Source of the DNA: a bacterium
GTDB lineage: Bacteria > Actinomycetota > Thermoleophilia > Solirubrobacterales > Solirubrobacteraceae
DNA length: 64,000 nt
Direction: 5' to 3'
Assembly: GCA_021323635.1 (NCBI GenBank)
Contig: JAJPKQ010000025.1
Location: 1-64,000 of the forward strand
Shown piece by piece: positions 12,027 through 19,204 of the stretch. A model generated the notes under the pieces. It ran no database searches, had not been told where the DNA came from, and saw only the letters and a program-made list of their open reading frames with translations. The stretch's first letter is position 1, and each line of letters begins with the position of its first letter. The position numbers were made by a program, and so were the translations under genes.

Positions 12027-13096
12027 CCGCGCGCAGCCCCCTCCGCCGCAGAGGCCATGCCCTCGCCCTCGCCCCCGCCAAGCACGCGGGCGATGGCCGC
12101 AGCGAGCAGCGCGTGCTCGGCAGGCGTGCGCACCGCGATGCGCAGGTGGTCGGAAGAGAGCCCCGGGAAGGAGTCGCAGGGGCGCACAGCGATCCCCTGC
12201 TCGGCAAGGCGCGCGGCCAGGGCGCTCCCCGGCGGCGCCTGCAGGAGAGCGAAGTTTGCCGCCGCCGGCCACGTGCGCAGCCCAGCGATCGCGCCAAGCC
12301 GGCAGAGGAGGTCCGCACGCGACGCGGCTACCGCCTCGGCCACACGCCGTGGCGTCTTCACGTCGGCGAGGCACATTGCGATCGCCGCAAGCGCAGGAGC
12401 GCTGACGCTCCAGGGCTGACGATGAGCCTCAAGGTGCCCAACGACATCCGCTGAGGCGAGCAGGTAGCCGGCGCGCACGCCGGGCAGCGCCCAGAGCTTG
12501 GTCAGACTGCGCAGGACAACCAGGCCCGGGAGGTCCTGCCGCTCGGCAAGGCTCGCCTCAGCGTCGCAGACGAAGTCGATGAAGGACTCATCTAGGAGCA
12601 GCGTGCGCCCGGGGCGCGCAAGGCGCTCGATCTGATCCGGCGAGTCGAGATTGCCGGTCGGGTTGTTGGGGTTGGCGAGCACGACAAAGTCCGCCTCCTC
12701 CGGCACCGCATCCACCTGCAGCGCAAAGTCATCCGAACGGCGCGCAACACGGCTCACCCGCCTGCCCGCCGCCCGCAGCGCCGCCTCAGCCTCGGTGAAG
12801 GAGGGATGAATGCAGACCGCATGGCGGATCGGCAGCGCGTGCGCGAGCAGCCAGAACGCCTCGCACGCCCCGGCGAGCGCCATCGTCTCGGCAAGCGGGC
12901 GGCGGTGTCGAGAGGCGATCGCCGCTCGCGCTGCGTGTTGATCGGGATAGGAGGTCGAGCGAAGGGCCTCTGCCATCGCCGCCAGCAGCCCGGCCTCATG
13001 AGTGCCGCGCCAGACATTCACCGCGAAGTCGAGCATCCCCGCGCGCACGAGCCGGTCGCCGTGCATGCGCAGCTCCTGCGTGGCGGAGGCGCTCAT
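12023..13096 (-). CDS. cobC: Threonine-phosphate decarboxylase (CobC/HisC-like)
   Basis: PLP enzyme that decarboxylates L-threonine O-3-phosphate to (R)-1-amino-2-propanol phosphate, the linker of the nucleotide loop. The 357-residue type I aminotransferase-fold protein shows ANPNNPTG, DESFIDF, and LRSLTKLWALPGVRAGY with the Schiff-base Lys. HisC relatives look similar, but position between cobD and bluB/cobT, with ATGA overlaps at both ends, identifies the B12 enzyme. The start MSASATQELR follows from that overlap with cobD. In Salmonella this decarboxylase is called CobD and CobC is a phosphatase, so the name depends on the scheme used. Confidence 0.9.
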   Translation of the reverse strand: MSASATQELRMHGDRLVRAGMLDFAVNVWRGTHEAGLLAAMAEALRSTSYPDQHAARAAIASRHRRPLAETMALAGACEAFWLLAHALPIRHAVCIHPSFTEAEAALRAAGRRVSRVARRSDDFALQVDAVPEEADFVVLANPNNPTGNLDSPDQIERLARPGRTLLLDESFIDFVCDAEASLAERQDLPGLVVLRSLTKLWALPGVRAGYLLASADVVGHLEAHRQPWSVSAPALAAIAMCLADVKTPRRVAEAVAASRADLLCRLGAIAGLRTWPAAANFALLQAPPGSALAARLAEQGIAVRPCDSFPGLSSDHLRIAVRTPAEHALLAAAIARVLGGGEGEGMASAAEGAARG

Positions 13097-14010
13097 CGAT
13101 CCCTCGCCAGCGCGAGCAGGACGCAGATCGCCAGCGCGCTGTAGCCGACAAGGCGGCACAGGCGCACGGCAGCGTCGATATCGTCGATCTGTGGCACGCG
13201 ACCCTCACCGAGCGTCGGGCGTACCTCGCTGCGGCCGGCGTAGCGGTTGGCGCCGCCCAGGCGCACGCCGAGCGCCCCCGCGTATGCCGCCTCCACCCTG
13301 CCTGCGTTCGGGCTGGGGTGCGCGGCGCCGTCGCGGCGCAGCACCCGCCAGGCACCGCCGACGTCGCCGCCGGCAAGCGGCGCGAGCGCAACGGCAAGCA
13401 GCGCGGCCAACCGCGCGCCGGGCCATCCGAGCAGATCGTCAAGGCGCGCAGCCGCCCAGCCGAAGCGCTCGTAGCGCTCGCAGCGATGGCCGATCATCGC
13501 ATCCAGGGTGTTCGCTGCGCGGTAGAGCGCCGCGCCCGCGGGGCCCGCAAGGCCACCCCAGAGCAGCGCCCCTACGAGGGCGTCGGCGCTGTTCTCCGCG
13601 ACCGACTCGATCGTCGCCCGACAGAGCTCGCCGCAGTCAAGCTCTGCGGTCTGCCGCCCGACGAGCGTCCGGGCGTGGAGGCGTGCAGCGGCCAGATCAC
13701 CCGCGTGGAGCAGCCCCGCCATGTGCCGCGCGGCGCGCTCGAGCGAGCGCCCGCCAAGCGTGACCCAGATGAGCAGCCCATCGCGCAGCGCGCCGCCCCG
13801 TGCAGCGCGGGCAAGCAGCGCGGTGGTCGCAAGCAGGCTTGCGAGGTGCGCCGCCCCGGCGCTGCGCCGCGGCGCCCAGGTGCGGCGCTCAAGCCTCCCG
13901 GCGAGGGCGCCAAAGAGGGCGACCGGGTGCGCCCGGGGCATATCACCAAGCGCGCGGTCGAGCGCAAAGCCGATCAGGAGCGCGCGTGCGTCACGAGCGC
14001 CGCTGCTCAT
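13093..14010 (-). CDS. cobD: Adenosylcobinamide-phosphate synthase (CbiB/CobD)
   Basis: Integral membrane enzyme that attaches aminopropanol (phosphate) to adenosylcobyric acid. The 305-residue protein has GFALDRALGDMPRAHPV, ESVAENSADALVGALLWGGLAGPAGAALYRAANTLDAMIGH, DDLLGWPGARLAALL and HPSPNAGRVEAAYAGALGVRLGG, all typical of CbiB. Several hydrophobic helices are spread through it. Start and stop each overlap the neighbouring gene by four bases, implying tight coupling. Upstream extension of the frame is antisense-like and rejected. Confidence 0.94.
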   Translation of the reverse strand: MSSGARDARALLIGFALDRALGDMPRAHPVALFGALAGRLERRTWAPRRSAGAAHLASLLATTALLARAARGGALRDGLLIWVTLGGRSLERAARHMAGLLHAGDLAAARLHARTLVGRQTAELDCGELCRATIESVAENSADALVGALLWGGLAGPAGAALYRAANTLDAMIGHRCERYERFGWAAARLDDLLGWPGARLAALLAVALAPLAGGDVGGAWRVLRRDGAAHPSPNAGRVEAAYAGALGVRLGGANRYAGRSEVRPTLGEGRVPQIDDIDAAVRLCRLVGYSALAICVLLALARDR

Positions 14011-14585
14011 CGCCTCGTCTCCGGAGCCGGCGCGCGCAGATCCACGGCGGAGGCGAGAGTAATCTCCTCGCCGCGCCCCAGCGCGATCAGCGCACCGGCG
14101 ACGACGAGGTATGCCTGCTCGGCCCGAGCGACCCAGATCGCGTTCACGCGACCGTGCAGATCGCGGAAGCGGCGACTGCAGGGATCGGCGGGCACCAGGC
14201 CCATGCCAAGCTCGTTGCCAACCGCAATCACGGGTGCCGTGCGACGTGCGGCCGCGGCGGCGGCCTCCTGCGCGAGCGCTTCGATCGCGCGCTCGTCGGT
14301 GCCGGAGCCAAGCAGGTTGGCGACCCAGAGCGTCAGGCAGTCGATGATCACCAGCGCCTGCGCCGGGGCACGCGCAAGCGCAGCGGCCAGCGCAAGCGGC
14401 TCCTCGATCGTCAGCCACTCACGTGGACGCTCGGAGCGGTGACGGGCGATCCGCGCGGCCATCTCCGCATCGCCCGCGGTCGCGGTGGCGATCATGCAGA
14501 CAGGCCCGCCGTGGGCGCGGGCGCAGCGCAGCGCAAGCGCGGACTTGCCGGCCCGCGCGCCACCGAGCAGCACGCAGAGCGCCAT
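14007..14585 (-). CDS. cobU: Adenosylcobinamide kinase / guanylyltransferase
   Basis: Bifunctional cytosolic enzyme that phosphorylates adenosylcobinamide and then transfers GMP from GTP. The 192-residue protein has the P-loop LGGARAGKSALA (the family usually shows GGxRSGKS; Ala replaces Ser before Gly), IATATAGDAEMAARIARHRSERP with the guanylylated-His region, IIDCLTLWVANLL, and VGNELGMGLVPADPCSRRFRDLHGRVN. Length matches CobU/CobP. The stop overlaps cobD by four bases and the start overlaps the cobO stop by one. Confidence 0.95.
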   Translation of the reverse strand: MALCVLLGGARAGKSALALRCARAHGGPVCMIATATAGDAEMAARIARHRSERPREWLTIEEPLALAAALARAPAQALVIIDCLTLWVANLLGSGTDERAIEALAQEAAAAAARRTAPVIAVGNELGMGLVPADPCSRRFRDLHGRVNAIWVARAEQAYLVVAGALIALGRGEEITLASAVDLRAPAPETRR

Positions 14586-15172
14586 CAGAAGTCAAGCCCC
14601 CGCTTGGCGCGAACGCCGCGGTCGTAGGCGTGGCGCACCTTCACCATCTCGGTGACCGTCTCGGCGACGTCGATCAGCCCTGCCGGCGCCTCGCGCCCGG
14701 TCAGGATCACGTTCACATGCTCAGGCCTTGACCTGATCGCCTCCAGCACAGGCCCGATCTCAACCCAACCCCAGTTGAGCGGGTATGTGATCTCATCGAG
14801 CACGACAAGCTGGTGGCGCCCGGCGGCAAGGGTCGCCGCCGCAAGCTCCCACGCTGCGCGCGCACGCTCGCGGCTGCGCTGCAGGTCGTCGCTGCACCAG
14901 CTGAAGCCATCGCCGGTTCTCGCCCAATCGACCCCCAGGCGGCGCGCCACCTGTTCCTCGCCGACCTTCCACTTGCCGGACTTGATGAACTGGATCACGG
15001 AGACCTGCCAGCCGCGCGCCACCGCGCGCATGACCACCCCGAAGGCCGCGGTGGACTTGCCCTTGCCCGCGCCGGTGTTGAGAAGCACCAGCGAGCGCGC
15101 GCGAGCGTAGGGCGGGCGCGGCGGGCGACTGCGCCTCGGAGCCGCGTGGCGAGGCTGCTCGGGCGCGCTCAT
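14585..15172 (-). CDS. cobO: Cob(I)yrinic acid a,c-diamide adenosyltransferase
   Basis: Adds the 5'-deoxyadenosyl group from ATP to the corrinoid cobalt, producing the form NrdJ uses. The 195-residue protein has a basic Pro/Arg-rich N-terminus, then LLNTGAGKGKSTAAFG (P-loop), VIQFIKSGKWKVGEE, VVLDEITYPLNWGW, and LTGREAPAGLIDVAETVTEM, all CobO/BtuR signatures. It overlaps btuD by four bases and cobU by one. Cytosolic. Confidence 0.96.
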   Translation of the reverse strand: MSAPEQPRHAAPRRSRPPRPPYARARSLVLLNTGAGKGKSTAAFGVVMRAVARGWQVSVIQFIKSGKWKVGEEQVARRLGVDWARTGDGFSWCSDDLQRSRERARAAWELAAATLAAGRHQLVVLDEITYPLNWGWVEIGPVLEAIRSRPEHVNVILTGREAPAGLIDVAETVTEMVKVRHAYDRGVRAKRGLDF

Positions 15173-16017
15173 CGCAGCCCTCCGATCGCCTCGCCGCCGC
15201 CCGCCTGCAGACGGGCGACCCCAACGCCGGCGTGCGCGCGGCAGACGCCTCTGCGCGAGGGCAGGACACAGACCTCGCCGCCCGAGCGGGCGATGCGCAC
15301 AAGCGCGCCGTAGTGAGCGCTGATGCGCTCTGCGCTCAGCAGCTGCTGCGGCGCCGCGCAGGCGACAAGCTCGCCGCCGTCGAGCAGCGCGAGGCGGTCG
15401 GCGTACTGGGCGGCGAGCGTGAGGTCGTGCATTGCAGAGAGGACGGTCAGGTGCTGAGCGCGCCGCAGCGAGTCGATCAGCTCAAGCGCCTGCTGCGCGT
15501 GACCGAGGTCAAGCGCGCTGGTGGGCTCGTCGAGCAGCAGCAGCAGGGGCTCCTGGGCGAGCGCGCGCGCCAGCGCCACGCGCTGGCGCTCGCCACCGCT
15601 GAGCGTGCCCAGCTGACGGTCCCCGAACGCGCCAAGCTCGAGCTGCGCAAGCGCCCACGCAGCTGCCGCGCGGTCGGCGCGCGACTCGCCCGCAAAGGGC
15701 GCGATGTGCGGCGTGCGACCGAGCAGCACGTATTCGGAGACCGTCAGCTGTGGGGGCATCACCGGGCGCTGGGCGACGAGCGCGACCTGGCGCGCGAGCT
15801 CGCGGCGATTGCTCCGATCAAGCGTGCGCCCCGCAAGCTCGATGCTCCCCGCGCAGCGAATCAGGCCCGCGAGCGCATGCAGCACCGTCGTCTTGCCGGC
15901 CCCGTTAGGACCGATCAGCGCGATCCACTCCCCGTCGTGAGCCTGCAGCGAGAGGCCGCGCAGGACCGCTCGCCTGCCGTAGGTGACCTCAAGGGCGCTC
16001 ACCCGCAGAGCGCTCAT
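15169..16017 (-). CDS. btuD: Cobalamin ABC transporter ATPase
   Basis: ATP-binding subunit of the B12/cobinamide importer. The 282-residue protein has Walker A (GPNGAGKTT, residues about 36-44), Q-loop region (VALVAQRPVMP), signature LSGGERQRVALARAL, Walker B LLLLLDEPTSALD, and the His switch AMHDLTLAAQ. A C-terminal extension of about 40 residues (SGGEVCVLPSRRG..CRAHAGVGVARLQ) goes beyond the ABC domain. Relatives include iron-siderophore ATPases; the operon position assigns it to corrinoids. Start chosen by ATGA overlap with btuC. Confidence 0.92.
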   Translation of the reverse strand: MSALRVSALEVTYGRRAVLRGLSLQAHDGEWIALIGPNGAGKTTVLHALAGLIRCAGSIELAGRTLDRSNRRELARQVALVAQRPVMPPQLTVSEYVLLGRTPHIAPFAGESRADRAAAAWALAQLELGAFGDRQLGTLSGGERQRVALARALAQEPLLLLLDEPTSALDLGHAQQALELIDSLRRAQHLTVLSAMHDLTLAAQYADRLALLDGGELVACAAPQQLLSAERISAHYGALVRIARSGGEVCVLPSRRGVCRAHAGVGVARLQAGGGEAIGGLR

Positions 16018-17132
16018 AGCTCGACATGCGCGGTGCGCAGCAGCACAAGCGCGAAGAAGGGCGCTCCGAAGACAGCGGTCACAACGCCGATCGGCACTTC
16101 CGCTGGGGCCAGCAGCGAGCGCGCGATCACGTCCGCAGCGACGAGAAAGCCACCACCCGCCACCAGCGAGAGCGGGACGATCGCGCGGTAGCTGCCGGAG
16201 ACAAGCCGCCGTATCGCGTGCGGGACGATGATCCCGACAAAGCCGATCAGGCCGCTGACCGACACGGCTGCCGCGGTGCCCGCGGTCGCGGCGATGATCA
16301 GCACGAGCCGCACGCGGGGCACGTTGAGACCTAGCGCTCCCGCCTCCTCGTCGCCGAGCGCAAGCACGTCGAGCATCCGCCGGTGCGCGATGATCACCGC
16401 GCAGCTGAGGGCGATGTAGGGGGCCACCAGCACGACCGAGCGCCATTCGGCGCCCGCAAGCCCACCGAGGATCCACGCATAGACAGCATGCAGCGTCTGT
16501 GAGCGCTGCTGCTGCGCAAAGGTCTGCAGGGCAGTGAGAAACGCTGCGATCGCAACCCCGGCCAAGACAAGCGCTCCGCCGCCAGGAGCGCGCGCGGCAG
16601 CGCGGGCGAGCGCGTAGGCGCCGGCAACCGCGATCAGCGCGCCCGCAAAGGCCGCAAGCGGCAGCGCCGCTCCGCTTGCGGAGGCGCCGGCGTAGGCGAT
16701 CGCGACCGTCGCGCCAAGACCGGCGCCCGCAGCCACCCCGAGCAGATAGGGGTCGGCGAGCGGGTTGCGGAAGACGCCCTGATACGCGGCGCCCGCAGCT
16801 GCCAGCATCGCCCCGACGAGCGCGCCGAGGATCACGCGCGGCGCCCGCACCTGCCAGAGGATCGCTTCGTCGATCGGGGAGAGCCGCGCGCCGAGGTGCA
16901 GAGCCGGCAGATGGGCGAGCGCTGAGCCGATGATCGCCTGCGGCGCAATCGAAACCGGCCCGACCGCAAACCCGAGCAGTAGCGCGCCAAGGGCGAGGAT
17001 CGCGATCAGCGCTCCACGCGCCCGCGGCACGCCGCGGGCGCGCACGAGCGCCTGCGCAGGTGCGCTGAGGGGCCAGGCACCCTCGCCCGGCGATTGCCCC
17101 TCCGCCTCGCACAGACGCTCGGCCGCGCTCAT
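16014..17132 (-). CDS. btuC: Cobalamin ABC transporter permease (FecCD family)
   Basis: Membrane subunit of the B12 importer, 372 residues with a 60-residue hydrophilic N-terminus and about nine to ten hydrophobic helices. FecCD/BtuC signatures are present: RAPRVILGALVGAMLAAAGAAYQGVFRNPLADPYLLGVAAGAGLGA, WILGGLAG, LGLNVPRVR, GLIGFVGIIVPHAIR. (R)LVSGSYRAIVPLSLVAGGGFLVAADVIAR near the C-terminus is the usual ATPase-coupling and exit region. The start ATG shares one base with the btuF stop. Confidence 0.93.
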   Translation of the reverse strand: MSAAERLCEAEGQSPGEGAWPLSAPAQALVRARGVPRARGALIAILALGALLLGFAVGPVSIAPQAIIGSALAHLPALHLGARLSPIDEAILWQVRAPRVILGALVGAMLAAAGAAYQGVFRNPLADPYLLGVAAGAGLGATVAIAYAGASASGAALPLAAFAGALIAVAGAYALARAAARAPGGGALVLAGVAIAAFLTALQTFAQQQRSQTLHAVYAWILGGLAGAEWRSVVLVAPYIALSCAVIIAHRRMLDVLALGDEEAGALGLNVPRVRLVLIIAATAGTAAAVSVSGLIGFVGIIVPHAIRRLVSGSYRAIVPLSLVAGGGFLVAADVIARSLLAPAEVPIGVVTAVFGAPFFALVLLRTAHVEL

Positions 17133-18079
17133 CAGGAGTGCTCGCGCGCCTGCAGCGACCGCACAGCTGCAGCGATCTTCTCCACAAAGTGCACGATCCG
17201 CGGGCCCCACTGCGAGGCGATCGAGTCCTCGACGGGGACGATCGCGCCGTCTTTGACGGCCGCGATGTTGCGCCAGCCCGCTCGCGCCGCGACGGTTGCC
17301 GCGCTCTGCTTGCAGCAGACCGTGTCGGCGAGGACGATCAGGTTGGGGTTCGCGGCGATGATGAACTCGTCTGAGAGCTGGGGATAGGGGCCGGCGCCGT
17401 GCGCGGAGTCGGCGATGTTCTGCAATCCGAAGAGCGAGTAGATCTGGCCGATGAAGGTGTGCGAGGTTGCCGAGTAGAGGGTCGGTTCAAGCTCGTGGTA
17501 TACGCGCAGCGCGCGCCGCGGGCGAGGCGTCGAGCGCACGATCGCGGCGATTTCCGCGGCGATGCGCTTCGCGACGCGCGCCGCCTGCTCGCTGTGTCCG
17601 GTCGCCTGACCGAGCTGCTCGATCTCGCTGTAGGCGCCGGCCAGATTCGCCGGCGCGGGCTCTCTCAGCACCGGGATGCCAAGCCTGCGCAGCTGCGCAT
17701 CGATGTGGTTCGTGTCTTCAGCGATGACAACGAGATCGGGGTGGTAGGCAGCGACCGCTTCGGCGCTTGCGGTCGTTTCGGTCAGCCGCGTGCGCGGCGC
17801 TTGCGGTGGAAAGGTCGAGTAGGCGTCAACTGCAGTGACCTGTGATCCGGCGCCGATCGCGTAGAGATCTTCGGTCGCGCTCGCGGAGAGCGAGAGGATC
17901 CGATGCGGCTGCTCCTCGATCCTGACCGGCCCGTCCGCCGCGGCGACCGTCGTCGGAAACCCTGCGGCGCGGGCGTGTGCTGCGTGGCCTGCGGGCGTCG
18001 CCCCCGCACAGGCTGCGAGCGGGATCGACAGGAGCGAGAGTGCAAGCGCGCGAGCGATGCGCGCCCTGGTTGTGGACAT
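17132..18079 (-). CDS. btuF: Cobalamin-binding lipoprotein of the ABC importer
   Basis: Extracytoplasmic solute-binding protein of the B12 importer, 315 residues. A signal peptide ends in the lipobox IPLAAC, making Cys24 the lipidated residue. The mature part is a class III binding protein: RILSLSASATEDLYAIGAGSQVTAVD, HPDLVVIAEDTNHI, PRRALRVYHEL, NPNLIVLADTVCCKQS. It is the first gene after the cobalamin riboswitch. The ATG follows directly on the six-T run of the terminator, and the only good ribosome-binding sequence (GGAGG) lies in that terminator's 3' arm. Confidence 0.93.
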   Translation of the reverse strand: MSTTRARIARALALSLLSIPLAACAGATPAGHAAHARAAGFPTTVAAADGPVRIEEQPHRILSLSASATEDLYAIGAGSQVTAVDAYSTFPPQAPRTRLTETTASAEAVAAYHPDLVVIAEDTNHIDAQLRRLGIPVLREPAPANLAGAYSEIEQLGQATGHSEQAARVAKRIAAEIAAIVRSTPRPRRALRVYHELEPTLYSATSHTFIGQIYSLFGLQNIADSAHGAGPYPQLSDEFIIAANPNLIVLADTVCCKQSAATVAARAGWRNIAAVKDGAIVPVEDSIASQWGPRIVHFVEKIAAAVRSLQAREHS

Positions 18080-18103
18080 AAAAAACCTCCGCGTAGGCGG
18101 AGG
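18080..18103 (-). terminator. Riboswitch expression platform: terminator overlapping btuF ribosome-binding site
   Basis: On the minus strand CCTCCGC (18103-18097) pairs with GCGGAGG (18092-18086) across a 4-base loop, followed by TTTTTT (18085-18080) and then the btuF ATG. The 3' arm contains GGAGG at Shine-Dalgarno distance from the ATG. Forming the hairpin would both end transcription and hide the ribosome-binding site. Confidence 0.85.
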
Positions 18104-18275
18104 GGGTCGGATCGGGCAGCTTGCGCGCCACGAACCGCCCTTCCTCCGAGGGCTTGTTCGTTCGGCGCAGGGCAGTCGACCTGGCTCAGCTCAATGGAGC
18201 ATCACAGTTGCGGGACAGCACCGGATTTGCACCGGTTTCGCTGCTACCGCGCCGGCCGGGGAATATGTGCCCGGC
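18104..18275 (-). promoter_or_regulatory. Cobalamin (B12) riboswitch aptamer
   Basis: The minus strand carries the conserved core ACCGGTGCAAATCCGGTGCTG followed by TCCCGCAACTGTGATGC (within 18196-18238) and the B12 box AGCCAGGTCGACTGCCCTGC (18186-18167). A further hairpin, GCGCC..ACGAAC/GTTCGT..GGCGC (18168-18125), lies between the B12 box and the terminator and may be part of the kissing-loop or switching region. High adenosylcobalamin is expected to shut off the nine-gene uptake and synthesis operon. The boundary at 18275 is estimated from the likely promoter. Confidence 0.93.
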
Positions 18276-18281
18276 GCGCGC

Positions 18282-18287
18282 AGCCTA
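18282..18287 (-). promoter_or_regulatory. Extended -10 of the riboswitch operon
   Basis: TGCTAGGCT on the minus strand gives an extended -10 (TGnTAGGCT) a few bases before the aptamer. No convincing -35 is visible, as for most promoters in this window. Confidence 0.5.
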
Positions 18288-18319
18288 GCATGCCCGGCGC
18301 GCGCCTGCAGCTCGCCGCG

Positions 18320-19204
18320 CTATGCCGCCGAGAGCGCTCCGATCGGGAGCTCATGCGCGGGCAGGCCCGGATCCTCGACGGCAGCGGGGTGAAGCAGGTG
18401 CGCAAGCTGACGGACGCCCTCCGCGATCCTTGGCGCCGGGCGCGAGTAGTAGGAGTCGCCGTCGACCACGACGGAGCGCACGGGCAGCCGCAGCGAGGCG
18501 CAGTGCGCGAGCGCCTGCTCGATCCCAAAGCCGCAGCAGGCCAGGACGATCAGCTTCGGGTCGGTCGCGAGAACCGCCTCCCAGCTTGTCGGAAAGGAGT
18601 ACTCGCCCGGGCGGCTGAGCAGGTTGCGCCCGCCGGCCGCCTCCACCATCTCAGGCAGCCAGTGGCCGCAGCCATAGGGCGGGTCGACCCACTCCGCGAC
18701 GAAGACGGGCACCGGTTGGCGCCGGGCGACTGCGGCGCGCACCGAGTCGATCTTGGCGCGCATCGCCGCCGCGAGCGAGCGGCCACGCTCTTCGACGCCC
18801 AGGCGCGCCGCCAGCTCGACGACGCTCACGATCACATCCTCGAGGCTGTGCGGGTTCATCGAGTAGACCTCGGCGCCGAGCGGGCAGGCGCTCTCCAGGT
18901 CACCGCTTGAGACCGCGCAGACCGTGCAGAGGTCCTGCGTGATGATTAGGTCGGGCGCGAGGGCGTCGATCAGCTCGCGATCGAGCGCCCAGAGCGAGTG
19001 CGTCTCGCTTGCTGCAGCGCTGACGAGCCGATCGATCTCAGCTGCGCTGAGGCCCTTCAGATCGATGCGGGTGCGCGCGACCTGCGGCTTCTTCCTGACC
19101 TCCGGCGGCCAGTTGCAGTCCTCTGAGACGCCCACGACCTGCTCGAGCAGGCCAAGCTCGGCGATGATGTCCGTTGCGCTCGGCAGCAGCGAGACGATCC
19201 GCAT
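18320..19204 (-). CDS. Signal-less BtuF-like cobalamin-binding protein
   Basis: The 294-residue protein begins directly with the class III binding-protein fold (MRIVSLLPSATDIIAELGL) and has no signal peptide, so it should stay in the cytosol. It contains SEDCNWPPEV, QDLCTVCAV, PYGCGHWLPEMVEAAGG and VLACCGFG; the Cys-rich motifs are unlike those of exported BtuF. Such proteins are often annotated as cobalamin-binding and sit near B12 genes. It ends just before the riboswitch promoter and runs on the same strand, but has its own promoter, TACACT six bases before the ATG. A role in holding or handing over corrinoid inside the cell is inference. Confidence 0.82.
   Translation of the reverse strand: MRIVSLLPSATDIIAELGLLEQVVGVSEDCNWPPEVRKKPQVARTRIDLKGLSAAEIDRLVSAAASETHSLWALDRELIDALAPDLIITQDLCTVCAVSSGDLESACPLGAEVYSMNPHSLEDVIVSVVELAARLGVEERGRSLAAAMRAKIDSVRAAVARRQPVPVFVAEWVDPPYGCGHWLPEMVEAAGGRNLLSRPGEYSFPTSWEAVLATDPKLIVLACCGFGIEQALAHCASLRLPVRSVVVDGDSYYSRPAPRIAEGVRQLAHLLHPAAVEDPGLPAHELPIGALSAA

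Follow-up and report, generated by a model that had tools for sequence, protein, structure and literature searches.

A candidate corrinoid-sensing leader of btuF with a Shine-Dalgarno hairpin of terminator-like form and a competing P13 loop

Organization of the btuF leader

The window analyzed here, a 64-kb stretch of DNA with a GC content of 69%, carries on its minus strand genes for B12 uptake and salvage in the order btuF-btuC-btuD-cobO-cobU-cobD. The first of these, btuF (17132 to 18079), encodes a 315 aa lipoprotein-type binding protein with a PF01497 domain, interpreted as the substrate-binding protein of a corrinoid ABC transporter; BtuF is among the best NCBIfam names for this product, with a score below its cut-off. 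The ATG at 18079 is a credible start codon because a lipobox (lipoprotein) signal peptide begins exactly there. The five genes downstream, which form a putative operon with btuF (13093 to 17132), were assigned through the Pfam domains FecCD, ABC_tran, CobA_CobO_BtuR, CobU, and CobD_Cbib. Upstream of the leader, a second gene for a PF01497 binding protein (18320 to 19183, minus strand) ends approximately 30 bp before the aptamer; this neighborhood is conserved, as the DNA upstream of the riboswitch in three other genomes (G019, G444, and G409) codes for a similar C-terminus.

The whole leader lies on the minus strand as well, where an aptamer, the hairpin P13, a spacer, a further hairpin, a U6 tract, and the AUG of btuF follow each other. 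The aptamer (18154 to 18289; 136 nt) belongs to the cobalamin riboswitch family RF00174, with a cmscan covariance-model score of 42.7 bits (E = 2.1e-7), above the gathering threshold of 31.5 bits; a first-pass annotation had placed a riboswitch at 18080 to 18275, and while the riboswitch is real, its aptamer reaches slightly beyond that range. Loop L5 (UCCCG; 18211 to 18215), the predicted kissing-loop partner of L13, matches the published L5 consensus (PMC10653944) and is without variation across a 17-sequence alignment, and the B12 box (GAGCCAGGTCGACTGCC; 18171 to 18187), located by Rfam alignment, is kept in relatives. With regard to ligand class, neither P8-P12 nor the large P6 extension that marks class I (AdoCbl) aptamers (PMC11260477) is present, the P6 arm being a short hairpin; as the aptamer is short and lacks this extension, AdoCbl is a plausible but assumed ligand.

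The hexamer TAGGCT (18282 to 18287) is a putative -10 element of the leader's own promoter. About 40 of 47 related leaders have a TANNNT hexamer at a nearly constant distance from L5 and the aptamer, and in the window the Rfam-defined 5' end of the aptamer overlaps this hexamer; a scan for sigma-70 consensus promoter pairs found none. The position of this putative -10 element suggests that the transcript may start near 18276, which would give a terminated leader of approximately 195 nt.

The hairpin P13 (18131 to 18160), delineated by folds and conservation, consists of an outer stem (CGAAC..GUUCG), an inner stem (GCCCU/AGGGC), and loop L13 (CGGAGGA; 18142 to 18148). L13 starts with CGG, so that L5 and L13 have the potential for a kissing interaction according to the published consensus (PMC10653944). 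The hairpin in front of btuF (CCUCCGC-CUAC-GCGGAGG; 18103 to 18086) has 7 bp and a predicted energy of -12.4 kcal/mol. Its 5' arm CCUCCGC (18097 to 18103) is the anti-Shine-Dalgarno (anti-SD) arm, and its 3' arm GCGGAGG (18086 to 18092) contains the btuF SD, GGAGG, which ends exactly 6 nt upstream of the AUG (18079 to 18077); no second SD was found near the btuF start. The intervening U6 tract (18080 to 18085) is the SD-AUG spacer and, by prediction, the tail of a terminator. The earlier description of GCGGAGG as both the 3' stem of a hairpin and the sole SD of btuF, with a T6 run (18085 to 18080) directly adjoining the ATG, thus holds, with all of these elements on the minus strand.

The background against which this hairpin was judged was drawn from the 64-kb window and from pattern searches. 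Within the window, it is the single hairpin directly followed by an unbroken U-tract, no comparable intrinsic terminator was seen elsewhere, and a T run of at least 4 is found in 1 of 43 SD-to-start spacers of long ORFs. The pattern CCTCCGN{3,9}CGGAGGTTTT had two matches in 36 genomes (the window's own genome, G000, and G019), both at a btuF start. A second GGAGGTTTTGATG site is present in the genome (G000 C34:12591-12603; L117). Of the 77 cobalamin riboswitches read in the order (61 genomes), 75 lacked a terminator-like hairpin between aptamer and gene, the two exceptions being the window element and its G019 copy; a hairpin in G016 was rejected as a riboswitch terminator, as it sits inside a coding region. 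In most of these 77 riboswitches P13 is short and its 3' part is the SD itself. The second cobalamin riboswitch of the genome (G000 C45:14712-14928; L001, L036), which precedes a gene for a secreted protein, has its SD in the 3' part of P13 and appears to be purely translational.

Related leaders and their variation

The copy in G019 (L003), CCTCCGC..GCGGAGG followed by T7 and ATG, is a version of the same element in which the loop differs. Two further families were found to carry the platform when BtuF was searched for class-wide and the leaders were inspected. From 12 of these leaders a covariance model was built, which had matches in 36 of 399 class genomes and 23 of 396 phylum genomes. BtuF-like proteins are encoded downstream of 34 of the 47 leaders, and the others (about a dozen) precede cobO-like, ribonucleotide-reductase-like, transporter-like, and other genes, where gene names in relatives are given by sequence resemblance. 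Ahead of ribonucleotide-reductase-like genes, the platform was found without a U-tract at five loci (L156, L157, L161, L166, and L168).

L13 repeats the sequence of the SD arm (CGGAGG) and can therefore pair with the 5' arm of the hairpin (CCUCCG); this competing partner, predicted to serve as antiterminator and anti-sequestor strand, is the half of the switch that was absent from the first-pass annotation. Seven sequence classes of L13 occur (including CGGAGGA, CGAAGGA, CGGAUGA, CGGGUGA, CGGAAGA, and CGAGGCA), and each of the seven pairs best with its own hairpin arm. As MAFFT misaligned the hairpin arms of one family (f5), duplex energies calculated for each locus served as the measure of co-variation; by class, pairing with the own partner gave -15.7 kcal/mol compared to a mean of -13.0 kcal/mol after permutation. 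Of 20000 permutations, 9 did equally well, a value close to the best possible since seven classes allow only 5040 arrangements. These comparisons support a hairpin of terminator-like form that conceals the btuF SD, with an exclusive pairing between L13 and its 5' arm that is kept by co-variation across the seven classes.

The U-tract is more variable than the hairpin. Immediately behind the SD arm, 16 of the 47 leaders have at least 4 consecutive U, with versions of U5 to U7 in G420, G384, G446, G315, G444, G409, and G347, and none of the 47 has such a run of A, C, or G. Leaders free of a U-tract keep the SD hairpin (e.g., UUCUCG in G174, AGCGAAG in G120, and UUCCG in G267), and predicted SD sequestration is the conserved core common to nearly all 47 leaders. 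When the presence of U runs was mapped on the BtuF tree, parsimony required 6 changes, 4 of them forced by well-supported branches. In G755 and G496, which belong to a different family outside the class, a U6 tract follows a different stem (CCUCCUCG/CGAGGAGG), and this version is independent of the one in the window.

The proposed switch and its alternatives

Folding was consistent with two mutually exclusive states. The isolated platform folds as an antiterminator, in which L13 pairs with CCUCCG, and the longer leader folds as P13 plus the terminator hairpin; for the 88-nt platform, the SD-free (ON) form was calculated at -32.0 kcal/mol and the L13-free (OFF) form at -35.5 kcal/mol, both values leaving out ligand, kissing loop, and co-transcriptional folding. 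As the ON and OFF folds are exclusive and within a few kcal/mol of each other, a ligand could decide between them. We consider it likely that the leader is an OFF switch that responds to a corrinoid and whose dual expression platform acts on both transcription and translation. The anatomy of the leader, its conservation, and the co-variation between L13 and the hairpin arm are directly observed; we infer the ligand, the kissing contact, the direction of the switch, its block of translation, and the efficiency of termination. When no ligand is present, P13 would be weak, and its loop and 3' arm (CGGAGG-AA-GGG..) would pair with the ACCCCCUCCG strand to form the antiterminator, which would also free the GGAGG SD and hence allow for transcription and translation of btuF and the downstream salvage genes. 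When ligand is bound, L5 would kiss L13 and keep it inside P13, so that CCUCCGC would pair with GCGGAGG and RNA polymerase would terminate in the U6 tract; in transcripts that are read through, the SD would be locked in the same hairpin. Dual control would explain a tight shut-off of the B12 uptake and salvage genes in the window.

Each element of this leader has precedent. A dual class of transcription and translation attenuation was defined by Barrick and Breaker in 2007 (PMC2258182), after Rodionov in 2002, by a terminator hairpin that lies within 10 nt of the start codon and has the RBS in its 3' side; the btuF hairpin is 6 nt from the ATG with GGAGG in its 3' arm. While that class is a computed category, here a single lineage was followed, which adds the L13 anti-strand and the changes in the U-tract. 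The Priestia megaterium metE corrinoid riboswitch (PMC10653944) shares the kissing loop between L5 UCCCG and L13 CGG, of which the L13 CGG is functional, as well as the competition between P13 and an antiterminator formed by the 3' side of P13 and the 5' arm of the terminator; folds and co-variation point to the same arrangement in the btuF leader, i.e., an antiterminator from a P13 strand and the terminator 5' arm that is exclusive with P13. The P. megaterium riboswitch is described as transcriptional, whereas L13 of the btuF leader is itself a copy of the SD arm, and the SD lies within the hairpin as well. In the metE leader of Mycobacterium tuberculosis (PMC11260477), a member of the same phylum, the hairpin that kisses L5 likewise provides the anti-anti-SD strand and the ligand-bound form hides the SD; that leader differs in having a class I aptamer with a long P6 extension and in being translational, with no intrinsic terminator found. 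Finally, the pT181 repC attenuator (PMC5435934) uses one hairpin as both terminator and RBS occluder, a dual action that was measured in E. coli, and a kissing interaction holds its anti-terminator when OFF; by contrast, its ligand is an antisense RNA and its context a plasmid. Neither the btuF element nor a graded U series was found in the open-access literature, with subscription literature largely outside the search.

The main alternative, which we regard as unlikely, is a switch that acts on translation only, in which the hairpin does no more than sequester the SD, while the U-rich stretch serves as an unstructured spacer and causes little or no termination. SD sequestration in nearly all 47 leaders, most of them without a U-tract, fits such a switch, as do the 75 of 77 cobalamin riboswitches of relatives that lack a terminator-like hairpin and the translational use of the same logic by M. 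tuberculosis metE (PMC11260477). The 6-nt length of the U-tract and the lack of another such hairpin in the 64-kb window also count against the termination half of the dual reading, and since the platforms without a U-tract (in G174, G120, G267, and others) presumably work, termination is not needed for control. A mere spacer, however, does not account for the finding that all spacer runs of 4 or more consist of U and none of A, though A would be equally unstructured, nor for U-tracts that sit right next to the hairpin in GC-rich genomes and are met repeatedly, on separate branches. A chance hairpin that only looks like a terminator, with btuF controlled by other means, is extremely improbable; a genome of 69% GC has many GC-rich hairpins, but the layout is conserved, L13 and the hairpin arm co-vary, and the pattern is rare.

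Control through a leader peptide is also very unlikely. A GUG at 18131, 11 nt behind the GGAGG of L13, could start a peptide whose translation melts the hairpin or is coupled to it; in relatives with short translational platforms, the start codon of the gene falls at the position of this GUG in the alignment, and uORFs modulate B12 riboswitches in M. tuberculosis (PMC11260477). Most homologues that share the platform nevertheless have no start codon at this position, and even G000 and G019 differ in reading frame (101 and 12 codons, respectively); this uORF was rejected since neither its start codon nor its frame is conserved.

With regard to the dual reading, the proposal that one hairpin could exert two controls is supported by the comparisons. 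Predicted SD sequestration is the part conserved across relatives, while the U-tract is lineage-specific, making the "riboswitch terminator" a derived and less certain feature. As the SD sequestor is conserved and the U-tract variable (at least 4 changes), termination would be an add-on to a translational switch. We somewhat favor the view that a platform in which L13 copies the SD arm is widespread in Actinobacteria and that several lineages independently made the sequestor a terminator by means of a U-tract spacer. If this is true, a few substitutions in the spacer turn a translational riboswitch into a dual one, so that only a short series of mutations separates two riboswitch modes in GC-rich Gram-positive bacteria, a group in which intrinsic terminators are considered scarce, as stated for mycobacteria (PMC11260477). 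The natural series from no U through broken U to U4 to U7, in otherwise matched riboswitches, would also make the added cost or benefit of termination measurable.

With regard to distribution, just 5 of the 232 genomes searched from the order had a BtuF, and the BtuF of the window (13093 to 18289 for the module; L084, L088-L090) clusters with the BtuF of another family with support of 98/98, which looks as if riboswitch and btuF had been transferred together as a module. Most BtuF leaders in another family of the class (L091-L113, L120-L132) have a long cobalamin riboswitch with the P13 CCCTCGCGGAAGGAGGATTCGTG and no SD hairpin, so that the same gene is under a different platform. At one locus (L151, G254), a riboswitch of the kind found in the window, with U6 and GUG as the start codon, lies ahead of an ATP-pyrophosphatase-like gene (SGGKDS motif) instead of btuF, a possible unexpected corrinoid-regulated gene.
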